From positions 1-64,000 of the forward strand of contig UYNY03000069.1 in the NCBI GenBank assembly GCA_900620265.3: a DNA stretch of 64,000 nt, given 5' to 3'. The stretch comes from Nitrosopumilaceae archaeon (GTDB lineage: Archaea; Thermoproteota; Nitrososphaeria; Nitrososphaerales; Nitrosopumilaceae). The notes under the pieces are model-generated. The model searched no databases and was not told the origin of the DNA. It worked only from the letters and a program-made list of their open reading frames with translations. Shown here one piece after another: positions 2,001-59,405 of the stretch. Every line of letters begins with the position of its first letter. Within the stretch, counting starts at the first letter, position 1. The translations under genes and the position numbers were made by a program.

Positions 2001-2654
2001 ATGGCACTATATCTGGAGACGGACGAGGCGAGGCGGCACATGTACCTGCTGCTCCGGGCCCCAGAGTTCAGGCGGGGTTTAGAGGGGATCCCCGCCGCAG
2101 AGAGGATCCACGAGGCTCTCTTTGTATTCAGGAGCATCAGGCGGCTGCCCGCGGGCGACCTTGTGATAAAAAAGGACGGCTGTTACAGCCCGTCCCTGGA
2201 TCTGGCGCTAAAAGAGGCCGTCGAGTCGGGCGAGGTCGCGCGTGAGGCGGCCGGCGGCGTCGAGCGCTACTCGCTGACAGACGGGGGGCTTGCAGAGTCG
2301 AGGGGGCCGTGGGACGCCGCCGAGGAGGACGAGAGGATAGAGGCCGCCGAGGCAAAGGACCAGGTGAACGAGATAACCGACAGGGAGCTAGTCTCGTTCC
2401 TGTATGCCGAGTTCCCAGAGACGTGGACGGATCCGGACATGAAGAAAAAGGCAAGGGAGTGGGGGTTCGAGGCGGCCTGCTCCATGTACGACCGTGCAAA
2501 GGTGTCGATTACCACCGGCTCTTGGATGGCCGGCATGGACTATGAGGGGTTCATGAAGGCGCTCATGGCGGGCGGGTACATGAAGTGCAGGGAGAGCGCG
2601 GAGGAGATGCGAAAAAATGTCGATGAGATCATTAATCATAGTAATGCTAATTGA
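2001..2654 (+). CDS. Antitoxin-like winged-helix protein paired with PIN gene
   Basis: 217 aa. A TATA-like ttaaata near 1971 lies about 25 nt before this ATG, giving a leaderless start. The N-terminal half looks like a winged helix ending in a wing (DGCYSPSLDLALKEA, then YSLTDGG), matching the Panacea/YwgA-style GPYS position. The C-terminal half has SFLYAEFP followed by a helix-turn-helix-like stretch (KVSITTGSWMAGMDYEGFMK) that resembles UPF0175 antitoxins. The same two-part layout recurs at 11412-12078 and 58318-58920, and a truncated copy of the N-terminus follows at 3210-3380. The next gene, a PIN protein, overlaps the 3' end, so an antitoxin role is inferred from pairing. No catalytic residues are evident. 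Confidence 0.6.
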   Translation: MALYLETDEARRHMYLLLRAPEFRRGLEGIPAAERIHEALFVFRSIRRLPAGDLVIKKDGCYSPSLDLALKEAVESGEVAREAAGGVERYSLTDGGLAESRGPWDAAEEDERIEAAEAKDQVNEITDRELVSFLYAEFPETWTDPDMKKKAREWGFEAACSMYDRAKVSITTGSWMAGMDYEGFMKALMAGGYMKCRESAEEMRKNVDEIINHSNAN

Positions 2655-3207
2655 CACCAATATCTGGATCCACCTGTATGAGGCGGGACTGACGTGGGTG
2701 ATCCGTGAGATCGTCAAGCTGCCCGGGCACGAGGTGTGGATAACCGGTTGTGTGCGGCGCGAGCTTGACAAGCCGGAGCACGGGGGGGTCCACGCCAGGA
2801 CGGACGGGATGCTTGATGACGGGACGGTCGTCACAGCCGCGGTTCCCGGGCAGGATCCGTCCAAGCCGTCCGCCTACAAAAAAGCCGAGTATGAGCTGAT
2901 CGCACTAGTGGAAGGGCTACTGGGCAAGGAATCAGGCTTGATCGTCACGAATGACGATCGGGCACTAGACAAATGCAATGCCAAAGGTATCAGATCGCTT
3001 GACATGGCCAAGTTTCTCATATGGTGCTGCGAGCAGTGCGTACTTGGGCGCGCCGACGCCGTGGACGGATTTGATGATCTTACAAAGGGCGGCCTCGTGT
3101 TAAAGACATCCAGACAAGAGTTTATCGACGAGATTTCACGATCTCCCGCGCCGTCCAGGCGCGGCCGCGCGGGCGGGGACAGGGGGGACGGCTCCCGTGG
3201 ATCCTGA
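2644..3207 (+). CDS. PIN-domain ribonuclease (VapC-like toxin)
   Basis: 187 aa from the ATG at 2644, which opens with the PIN signature MLIDTNIWIHLYE; an earlier in-frame ATG at 2617 would add nine residues. The first acidic residue (D of DTN), a second in VRRELDK, and a last in LIVTNDDRALD are visible; the third usual Asp position reads KAEYELIAL, so it may be a Glu or be divergent. The gene overlaps its partner by 11 nt, a typical toxin-antitoxin arrangement. PIN toxins cut RNA, often tRNA or rRNA. The last ~25 residues are Arg/Gly/Ser-rich and much more GC-rich than the rest, then the relic at 3210 begins, suggesting the original C-terminus was replaced at a recombination junction. Confidence 0.75.
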   Translation: MLIDTNIWIHLYEAGLTWVIREIVKLPGHEVWITGCVRRELDKPEHGGVHARTDGMLDDGTVVTAAVPGQDPSKPSAYKKAEYELIALVEGLLGKESGLIVTNDDRALDKCNAKGIRSLDMAKFLIWCCEQCVLGRADAVDGFDDLTKGGLVLKTSRQEFIDEISRSPAPSRRGRAGGDRGDGSRGS

Positions 3208-3209
3208 CT

Positions 3210-3380
3210 AGGCGAGGCGGCACATGTACCTGCTGCTCCGGGCCCCAGATTTCATGCGGGACTCCGAGGAGATCCCAAAGACCGAGAGGATCCACGAGGC
3301 GCTCTTTGTGCTCAGGAGCGCCATGAGGCTGCCGCCCGGCGGCCTTGTGATAAAAGGGGACGGCTGCCACGGCCCGTCCC
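3210..3380 (+). pseudogene. Truncated paralogue of the antitoxin-like gene at 2001
   Basis: About 170 bp match 2030-2198 closely: both read gcgaggcggcacatgtacct, share RIHEALF and LVIK-GDG, and stop matching just after the GPS codons. In frame it gives MYLLLRAPDFMRD and then ERIHEALFVLRSAMRLPP; differences from the first copy are mostly conservative, so the copy diverged as a working gene before it was cut. Sequence then runs into the promoter of the next gene. No start or stop of its own. Confidence 0.75.
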
Positions 3381-11411: not shown

Positions 11412-12078
11412 GCCGCCCCGCGGCCACGTCCGTTTTTCCCCAGATGCGATCTCCCGGACCAGCGACGACAGCCCGCCGGCATGCTCGATGTATTCGGGGA
11501 TCTCCCCGTCACGGACCATGTCCACAAAGTCCACGTATGGCATGCAGGCCACGGTCGCCGACTGCGCAAGCGTGGTCTTTCTCTTTGGCAGGAGGGAGCA
11601 CGCCGCCTCCACCCTGTACTTGCAATAATCCTCGTACGTTTCTGATTTCTTTGTAAATTCAGGATATATTGAGTAAATATATGAGGCGGCCTCCCTGTAA
11701 TCCATGTCGTTCATGAACCCCTTTACGGCGACCATGTGCCCCCTAGTCGATTCGTCCACACTCCCCCATAAGGACTTCGCCTCGTTGATCTTTTTATCCG
11801 CTAGTGCCAGACCGAATTTTTTTTTCGGGTATGCGTACAAGGTTTTCCTGCTTCTTGTTGATATTCATGGCGTCGAACAGCGCCTTGCTGAACGGGCCGT
11901 ATTTCCAGCTTGTGAACCTGAGCCCGGTCTCCTGGCGCCTAGACAGCATGAACATCTGCTTTTGAAACAGCGTATCGCTCGGCACGGGCACGTTGTATGA
12001 GCCGTCCACCGGGGCATATACTAACATGTACGCCATCCTCTCTGCCCCCCTGACGTCCTCCGGTTCCAGCTTCCTCAC
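11412..12078 (-). pseudogene. Frameshifted winged-helix/UPF0175-like antitoxin relative
   Basis: A leaderless GTG at 12078 lies 25 nt from gattttaacc (near 12104). The first frame gives a Panacea/YwgA-like winged helix: LFQKQMFMLSRRQETGLRF then WKYGPFSKALFDAM. At a run of nine A (minus strand, about 11817-11825) the frame must shift to continue as KKKFGLALADKKINEAKSLW, then YIYSIYPEF, RVEAACSLL and AQSATVACMPYVDFVDMV, the same C-terminal layout as the gene at 2001. Removing one A would fuse them. The 3' end runs into GC-rich sequence without a proper stop and has no PIN partner. Base composition is clearly AT-richer than the flanks. Programmed slippage at A9 is possible but decay is likelier. 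Confidence 0.6.
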
Positions 12079-50055: not shown

Positions 50056-50189
50056 CGCCCGGCGTTCCTCCCGTCCAAATATAATTGGAGGCGTGGCCGG
50101 GGGACCGGATCCGGCAGGTTCTGCGGATCCCCGGTGCCCAAATTCGCGCCCTGCGGACTCTTTATATGCAGGCGGCGGCGATCCGGGCC

Positions 50190-50657
50190 ATGAACAAGCA
50201 GGCGATGGATCTTGGGTTCCTGCTGAAGCAGATTCCCGGGTACGACTTTTCGATGGCAGAGTTTGACGACAGGCTCAGGCTCCAAAAGATGGTGTACCTG
50301 CTCCAGGCGTTCGGGGTGTACCTGGGGTATGACTTTAACTGGTACCTGCGCGGCCCCTACTGCACCGTCCTGACGGCCAACGCCTTTGTGGTGGCAAAGT
50401 TCTATGGGGAGATACCCGACAGGCGCGTGACATTCAAGAGCTCGCTGGCGCAGGAAAGGTTTGAAAAGTTCCTCGAGTTCAACAGGGGCAAGAGCGTGGA
50501 TGATCTGGAGATCGCGGCGTCGCTCCACTACCAGAGCAGGGTACTCCACAAGGACGATGGGGAGTCAAAAAAGGCGGTCGTGGCCAAGAGGCCCAGCTTT
50601 ACGCCTGAGATGGTCGGGCGCGTGTGGGCCCAGATGGAGGGGTGCGGTCTGGTATGA
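50190..50657 (+). CDS. YwgA/Panacea-like winged-helix protein leading a three-gene operon
   Basis: 155 aa from ATG 50190, 26 nt after tttatatgc. RLRLQKMVYLLQAFGVYLGY then FNWYLRGPYCTVLTANAF is the YwgA/DUF4065 pattern, with GPYC in place of GPYS. The C-terminal part is helical and basic (SKKAVVAKRPSFTPEMVGRV). Such proteins are phage-associated or act as antitoxins. Two small genes follow with overlap or close spacing, the last a membrane protein, so a toxin-antitoxin or abortive-infection unit is a reasonable guess. Confidence 0.65.
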   Translation: MNKQAMDLGFLLKQIPGYDFSMAEFDDRLRLQKMVYLLQAFGVYLGYDFNWYLRGPYCTVLTANAFVVAKFYGEIPDRRVTFKSSLAQERFEKFLEFNRGKSVDDLEIAASLHYQSRVLHKDDGESKKAVVAKRPSFTPEMVGRVWAQMEGCGLV

Positions 50658-58135: not shown

Positions 58136-58317
58136 GGGGGCCGGCCCGGGGCCGCCGCGTGCCGGGACGGGCGCGGGCGGCGCGCGGCCGGCTGCCTGCG
58201 GGCCCCCTGCTTCCCGATCACGCCGGGGCGGCGTCCGCTGCGCAACGCGATCCTGCCGGCCGCGGCGCGCGGCCCGTGAAAGTTAATATACGCAGACAGG
58301 AGATCTTGGCCACGGGA

Positions 58318-58920
58318 ATGGAGGCAAGCGCCCCTGTTGTGGACGCGGATTTGTTACGGGATGACGTGCACAGATACATAGTGGTGCTAGTCGGGATGGA
58401 TGGCAAACCGGTGCGCGGGAGGGCAAAGCTGCAAACCGTGCTGCTGCTGCTAGCCGAGGGCATACCGAAGGTCGGCATGGAACTGAGATACTCGGCGCAC
58501 AAGTCCGGGCCCTAGAGCAGCGTCGTCTCCGACGGGGTCGAGTACCTGAAGGAGAGGGGACTGCTGTCCGAATCCCCCGAGTGCCTGTCCCTAACCGATG
58601 ACGGCAAGATAATGAACAACAGGGTCTACGGCGAGATCGAGGACAGGATGCTGAAGGGGATTCAAAAGTGCAAGAAATTCATAAACGACATGCCGATCGA
58701 CGAGATGCCTGCATTCATATATTCGACGTTCCCCGGAAAATCAAAGCTATGTGAGGGATACGACTCGATAATGAGCATGCAAAAGTCCCACATAATGACG
58801 CTGGTGGAAATGGACAAGATCAGCATGGGGCGGGCTGCAGAGCTGCTGGGAATTACGATTAACGCCGTAATGGCAGAATACGCATCACGGCAAAGGTTGG
58901 GCACGTATACAAAATGCTAA
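58318..58920 (+). pseudogene. UPF0175-like antitoxin with winged helix, broken by an in-frame TAG
   Basis: Start ATG at 58318 (or TTG 58306), 27-30 nt after gttaatatac. N-terminal winged helix RAKLQTVLLLLAEGIPKVGM is cut by TAG at 58513-58515, and the same frame continues SSVVSDGVEYLKERGLLSES. The lost codon is the Tyr of the GPYS motif kept in related genes. The C-terminal half has AFIYSTFP and then MDKISMGRAAELLGITINAV, a good UPF0175 match. Unless the stop is read through, the antitoxin is lost or only the C-terminal part is made from internal starts (58612 ATG). Confidence 0.7.
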
Positions 58921-59405
58921 TATTCGACACATAGAGGTTGATCGGTATCGTGATGTCGATTTCATGGATTTAATGGACAGGATACTGATGTTGGACAAAC
59001 ACCTTGTTATTCCATCAAGCCTGCTTGAAATAGAGATATCCGTTCCCAAAACATTGGAGTGTGTAAACAGGCTCATATATGAAAAAAAGCCCAGAATATC
59101 TGCCATGAATACGTTGGCTGAAATCAATATGTTCAAATACAATTATGACTTGAACAACTCTCTTGCCAGTGGAGAATTAGATGTAATGCTTACATGTAAA
59201 AAATATGCACCTGGAATGAAAAATGTACGGCGTGTTCTGGATGAGTTCGCAGCGCGCAGGCGTGCAGCTGAACCGGGCATCGCATATATCGGCCTGCTAG
59301 GACTGTTGGAAGAAATGAGATCTGGCGGGATCACCAGCAAGGATGAATTTGAAGCAATCTGTAAAAAACTACATGAAAGCGGGTTCAGGATTACGGCCAA
59401 GTACA
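58914..59405 (+). pseudogene. Frameshifted PIN toxin of DUF3368 type
   Basis: The PIN start MLIFDT overlaps the antitoxin stop, but TAG follows at once; a frame two bases away continues IEVDRYRDVDFMDLMDRILM and SSLLEIEIS. The C-terminal DEFAARRRAAEPGIAYIGLL with LLEEMRSGGI and KKLHESGFRI is the DUF3368 ending, the usual toxin partner of UPF0175. The reading stays open to ~59405, where GC-rich unrelated sequence replaces the true C-terminus. AT-rich throughout. An internal ATG at 58964 could still start a shortened protein without the DTN Asp. Confidence 0.65.

Follow-up and report, generated by a model that had tools for sequence, protein, structure and literature searches.

Proteins of the COG2886 family and PIN-domain proteins form an established type II toxin-antitoxin pair (PMC2701414), an example of which comes from Geobacillus (PMC6929052), and pairing of COG2886 with RelE is known from cyanobacteria (PMC2701414). 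A repetitive helix-turn-helix (HTH) family with PIN genes, paREP6, was described from Pyrobaculum, other Thermoproteales and Korarchaeum (Makarova et al. 2009, PMC2701414). Antitoxins of a different kind carry the SocA or Panacea domain (DUF4065), for which just five taxa were found to have more than five homologues (PMC8832971). PDC-S70 of PADLOC is a candidate defence gene with a putative antiviral role; it encodes a PIN nuclease and is thought to be archaeal in origin (PMC12988326).

This study concerned a family of antitoxin-like genes recurring at three loci (2001, 11412 and 58318) in a 64,000-nucleotide stretch of DNA (the window) from a Nitrosopumilaceae archaeon. Like the COG2886/UPF0175-PIN systems, the family has a UPF0175-type HTH antitoxin, an overlapping DUF3368-type PIN gene directly behind it and an archaeal-rich distribution; an earlier note on this DNA had rightly taken UPF0175-DUF3368 to be an established pair, as COG2886-PIN is (PMC2701414). 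Unlike COG2886 proteins, described as small and consisting of a single HTH, it has an antitoxin-type domain of about 150 residues fused in front. The fusion was undescribed in the literature searched, except that the family may be paREP6 or its sister family: both lie next to PIN genes, are multi-copy in one lineage and have an HTH with a distant relationship to COG2886, although the paREP6 text describes the HTH only and the comparison is one of descriptions. With PanA and SocA (DUF4065, Panacea; PMC8832971) the family shares a related N-terminal domain and the exchange of partners between toxin types, but the HTH of PanA is N-terminal, whereas here it is C-terminal and of UPF0175 type, and the SocA_Panacea cut-off is not reached. 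The family's N-terminal domain is also matched by the C-terminal domain of DarG (PDB 7yk3). Unlike DarG, these proteins of 190-220 aa have no macrodomain and no DarT neighbour; UPF0175 stands where DarG has its macrodomain, and the partners are PIN or ParE/RelE. Lastly, PDC-S70 models match both the UPF0175 part and the PIN partner, but the PADLOC models that pick out the N-terminal antitoxin domain are others (PDC-M19A, DarG).

Results

Recognition and domain make-up of the family

To avoid circularity, an antitoxin model was derived from 34 sequences, all taken from other genomes, and searched against the 806 open reading frames (ORFs) of the window. It clearly matched exactly three loci (2001, 11412 and 58318), whose main pieces had E-values of 1e-22 to 1e-25. 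Shuffled ORFs gave no match; the three loci are thus one family, as the earlier note had proposed. A marginal match to the N-domain model (50085-50657, +; E=0.006) may mark a further SocA-like gene or be fortuitous. Among the window ORFs, a PIN profile likewise derived from other genomes recognised only the PIN gene of the 2001 locus and the relic of the 58318 locus. None of the window proteins reaches a Pfam cut-off.

By sequence similarity, the C-terminal half is a UPF0175/COG2886 domain. Window copies score 18.2 and 17.3 bits against UPF0175, below the cut-off of 27.9, and align over their full length with homologues that pass it. Six such homologues from other genomes (L140, L141, L143, L149, L154 and L119) gave E-values of 5.5e-13, 2.2e-11, 1.1e-10, 2.2e-10, 6.3e-08 and 2.7e-07, and 12 of 13 paralogues in the same genome as the window matched UPF0175 weakly or better. 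The PADLOC PDC-S70 model matched this part as well (1.6e-8). Both the UPF0175 link and the alignability of the C-terminal halves, the points on which the earlier note could have failed, were confirmed.

The N-terminal half is a SocA/Panacea-like antitoxin domain resembling the C-terminal domain of DarG. The best solved-structure match of the family profile was that DarG domain (PDB 7yk3, E=6e-7); DarG models responded to the family in PADLOC (1e-6) and also in NCBIfam, and the domain matched PADLOC PDC-M19A. Haloarchaeal proteins annotated as SocA/DUF4065 matched it by tblastn (E=4e-9 to 4e-6), among them WP_049938427.1, named archaeal PanA in PMC8832971, and the A2 profile matched haloarchaeal SocA-like proteins at 5e-20 to 6e-22, with only three sequences searched. 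No family member exceeded the Pfam cut-off of 25.7 for SocA_Panacea (PF13274), the best being the window ORF at 11794-12078 (20 bits, E=0.0014); the haloarchaeal PanA relative itself scores 25.4 against this cut-off. The haloarchaeal SocA-like proteins have no UPF0175, yet they carry the motif VYTSYPSFA, and the alignment runs through the Y..P motif. Because it is kept in proteins without UPF0175, the Y(S/A)x(F/Y)P motif, which the earlier note had set apart as an element of its own, forms the end of the SocA-like domain.

An AlphaFold model of the homologue L110 (three alignment rows, mean pLDDT 78) has a winged-helix core, additional helices and a C-terminal helix-turn-helix; none of the matches in a fold search with it was significant, and those listed were generic winged-helix proteins (PadR/MarR-like). 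A single-sequence AlphaFold prediction of the 2001 protein was set aside (pLDDT 43). The N-terminal half is more than the winged helix that the earlier note described: it is of SocA/Panacea-like and DarG-C-terminal-like type, a known kind of antitoxin domain.

Loci in the window

The locus at 2001-3379 comprises an intact pair and a trailing stub. The antitoxin gene (2001-2654, +; E=9.5e-23 with the other-genome model) is intact and encodes 217 aa, the SocA/Panacea-like domain occupying approximately residues 1-150 and the UPF0175-like HTH approximately residues 151-204. About 30 bases 5' of its start is a TTAAATA box (1971-1977, +), a leaderless-type archaeal promoter; the surrounding sequence, CAAACGGGTTAAATA, recurs 5' of most paralogues of the 2001 subfamily. 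The adjoining PIN gene (2644-3207, +), a divergent DUF3368-type gene and the predicted toxin, was recognised by the other-genome PIN model (E=6.7e-10), although searched alone it had no Pfam or NCBIfam match, and the conserved acidic residues D, E, E and D(D) are all present. Its ORF was listed from 2617, but the natural start is the ATG at 2644, giving an 11-nt overlap with the antitoxin stop, so the locus is indeed intact with an overlapping PIN gene, as first described. Directly 3' of the PIN gene lies an antitoxin remnant (3200-3379, +) of the first ~60 codons with one TAG inside, a fourth family piece that the earlier note overlooked; the resulting order, antitoxin-toxin-antitoxin, is that of array copies elsewhere in the genome.

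At 11412 the antitoxin is split between two ORFs of the minus strand. The N half (11794-12078, SocA/Panacea-like) covers model positions 10-85 (E=5.7e-10) and the C half (11412-11813, in an ORF covering 11412-11864) positions 84-188 (E=8.7e-22); since these positions adjoin, the locus is one gene, broken by a single frame change. The frame changes at an A9 run (11817-11825, -), the sole homopolymer of at least nine in the 64 kb window of 66% GC, where slippage, assembly error and decay are indistinguishable. In the C half the family match stops near 11499, and the frame continues beyond the family's usual end. A TTTTAA box lies 29 bases 5' of the GTG start, and the best matches of both pieces fall in the 2001 subfamily. 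With the other-genome PIN profile, applied to all window ORFs, no PIN was detected behind this antitoxin, in keeping with the original description of the locus as lacking a toxin.

At 58318 both genes of a pair have decayed. The antitoxin (58318-58920, +; C half E=1.6e-25, N half E=1.8e-7) belongs to a second old subfamily, and its frame is open save for one in-frame TAG (58513-58515) within the GPYS motif; a TTAATA box (58283-58288, +) lies 35 bases 5' of the start. The gene behind it (58914-59413, +) is a DUF3368-type PIN relic, as had been suspected, with E=8.1e-23 against the other-genome PIN model. Its ATG at 58914 overlaps the antitoxin stop and a stop and a frame change occur near its start; the body (58952-59401) is open and matches PIN profile positions 15-159.

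Toxin partners

The PIN partners constitute one divergent DUF3368-type family, far from any characterised VapC. Columns D4 and E82 of the family alignment are invariant and D104 nearly so; five of the 12 members matched the DUF3368 profile, at 2.5e-6 in the best case, and against the PDB the PIN profile found only VapC6 (E=0.02) and a PIN domain (E=0.03). PADLOC PDC-S70 PIN models matched a close relative of the 58318 PIN (4.5e-11). In most full-length homologues checked from other genomes a PIN gene lies directly 3', and a check of pairing in the genome of the window found family PIN loci at 16 places, including 2001/2644 and 58318/58914, all of them directly 3' of an antitoxin copy or fused to one; about 12 of the PIN genes seem intact. 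Two fusions, on contigs C54 (L036, 2075-3136) and C23 (L040, 2559-3872), have the antitoxin and the C-terminal part of the PIN in one open frame, without the PIN N-terminus and its first catalytic Asp, and so resemble antitoxins to which a disarmed toxin is attached.

At L119 (1091-2091), L120 (1495-2486) and L144 (1076-2235), the genes behind the antitoxin are of ParE/RelE type, not PIN. These partners are above the Pfam cut-off, and their antitoxins form one strongly supported clade, which has exchanged PIN for ParE/RelE. This change of toxin speaks for an antitoxin role of the two-domain protein.

Related domains were seen in other settings. In the same genome (contig C6), a SocA-like gene with no UPF0175 match (L098, 2736-3524) overlaps a different PIN (PF01850, 3.1e-6), and may represent a second kind of SocA-like/PIN pair. 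In relatives, stand-alone SocA-like genes (L107, 4886-5380; L126, 1405-1929; L131, 1471-1923) are followed by an overlapping gene of ~189 residues, apparently a membrane protein, a possible unrecorded toxin-antitoxin pair. Other stand-alone SocA-like proteins (L130, L133, L136 and L138) are followed by a conserved protein of unknown kind (~390-417 aa) with the signature PTRxxEIKTRxGTIETPSRAATMFEYN.

Copy number and distribution

The genome is a 2.0 Mb draft of 113 contigs. Its G+C content of 66% equals the published figure for 'Ca. Cenporiarchaeum stylissum', a sponge symbiont (PMC6697440), and the organism may be that symbiont or one like it. A family profile search of it found 37 nearly full-length copies plus fragments, ~40 in all, and the three loci first noticed are a small sample of these. 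As the 16 PIN loci are all beside or fused to copies, ~21 near-full-length copies are toxinless, and a PIN stands beside fewer than half of the copies; orphan status is uncertain near contig ends, and C47, which reaches a contig end, may have a PIN. Copies also lie near the ends of C55, C93, C110 and C37 and at the start of C69, where repeats perhaps broke the assembly, and the true copy number may be higher than counted. The largest array is on contig C113 and runs antitoxin-PIN-antitoxin, then antitoxin-PIN-antitoxin-PIN-antitoxin, then antitoxin and antitoxin-PIN, with another antitoxin-PIN further along.

In a tree of 70 sequences the copies of this genome form two clades. The 2001 clade has L118, L102 and L121 as neighbours in other genomes, while the sister group of the 58318 clade consists of single-copy Nitrosopumilaceae genes (L103, L104, L113-L115 and L161). 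Two clades with separate outside relatives indicate that two inherited modules expanded separately. The earlier picture of three decay states of one gene was dropped, since 58318 and 2001 belong to different old subfamilies.

A full-length copy was present in 3 of 60 relatives, 36 of which were from the same genus, and order- and phylum-wide scans revealed scattered single copies, relatives usually having none or one; after the genome of the window, the largest number was about seven, in G262. An A3 pattern scan of named genomes hit only two, both Nitrosopumilaceae. No viral genome matched in a scan with A3, giving no sign of virus carriage, and phage and plasmid collections contained SocA-like N-domain relatives only, the full fusion being absent. 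The idea that the fusion is private to this genome was abandoned after the order and phylum scans: it occurs across many families of the archaeal phylum, normally beside a PIN gene.

Discussion

The pair and each of its domains are known; what is surprising is the surplus of antitoxins in one genome. The reading we consider probable is that the family is a two-domain type II antitoxin with a DUF3368-type PIN partner, and that two such modules expanded and became toxin-poor in this lineage. Homology, domain make-up, pairing, copy number, promoter-like boxes and selection on the frames were computed. Beyond these, we infer that the SocA/Panacea-like N-domain would bind the toxin directly and block it, that the C-terminal UPF0175 helix-turn-helix would bind its own promoter (autoregulation), and that the PIN, a predicted Mg-dependent ribonuclease, would cut RNA when free. 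The toxin would be translated from the start codon within the antitoxin's stop region. Two ancestral antitoxin-PIN modules would each have been duplicated many times, partly as tandem arrays with gene conversion, and toxin genes lost more often than antitoxin genes, leaving the toxinless majority. The window would then sample several outcomes: an intact pair with an antitoxin stub, a frameshifted orphan and a doubly decayed pair. PIN toxins that remain in the genome or enter the cell may be countered by the orphan antitoxins, and such cross-protection would be the reason that the orphans persist.

The surplus copies could instead be decaying leftovers of a selfish module, produced by tandem duplication and toxin loss and having no present role. 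Visibly broken copies do occur (window 3200, 58318 and 11412, and stop codons at C31 and C93), as do toxin remnants (C25, C54 and C23). Most copies, however, are open over ~200 codons, and in the 2001 subfamily dN/dS is 0.26-0.60 across the 45 closest pairs, orphan-orphan pairs included, so that the frames are under purifying selection. Most copies, the orphans and both broken window genes among them, also keep a TATA-like box 27-35 bases before the start, mostly at 28-30, a spacing as expected for leaderless archaeal genes; three of the exceptions overlap a PIN gene at its end and are presumably co-transcribed with it. Decay thus fits a minority of copies, and as a general account it is unlikely. 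The nearest-relative pattern switches along the gene, and 0 of 1000 permutations reached the observed run lengths, a result that clustered constraint can inflate; gene conversion is the likeliest cause of this mosaic pattern.

It is also conceivable, if rather improbable, that the orphans are ordinary DNA-binding regulators, members of a transcription-factor family found occasionally beside a PIN, and that the expansion was regulatory and not neutralising. The protein has two domains of DNA-binding type, many PIN-less copies have their own promoter box, and the fold search leans, weakly, to PadR/MarR-like winged helices. Against this, distant homologues, the ParE/RelE clade among them, as a rule have a toxin gene as partner, no family PIN lies away from a copy in this genome, and the N-domain is of the type by which SocA/PanA and DarG neutralise. 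A chance fusion, in this lineage, that brought in an unrelated winged helix as the N-terminal half seems very improbable: the Pfam assignment of this half is above the cut-off in no member, but the same two-domain protein occurs in many families of the phylum, beside toxin genes, and its N-half matches SocA-like and DarG profiles.

The family joins in one phylum-wide protein two modules that have been studied separately, a SocA/Panacea/DarG-type neutraliser and the UPF0175 HTH, and surveys of genomes by Pfam cut-offs overlook its genes. The antitoxin expansion is very large for so small a genome, with antitoxins outnumbering toxins. A bolder proposal, which we regard as quite doubtful, is that the ~21 toxinless copies, with their recombining tandem arrays and, for the most part, promoters of their own, act as a varied set of antidotes to PIN-type toxins, whether resident or arriving from outside; if true, a sponge-type archaeal symbiont would possess antitoxin-only immunity, serving anti-addiction or protection from mobile elements. 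Natural paralogues would also offer a direct test of why antitoxins outlast their toxins, should the orphans be able to cross-neutralise.
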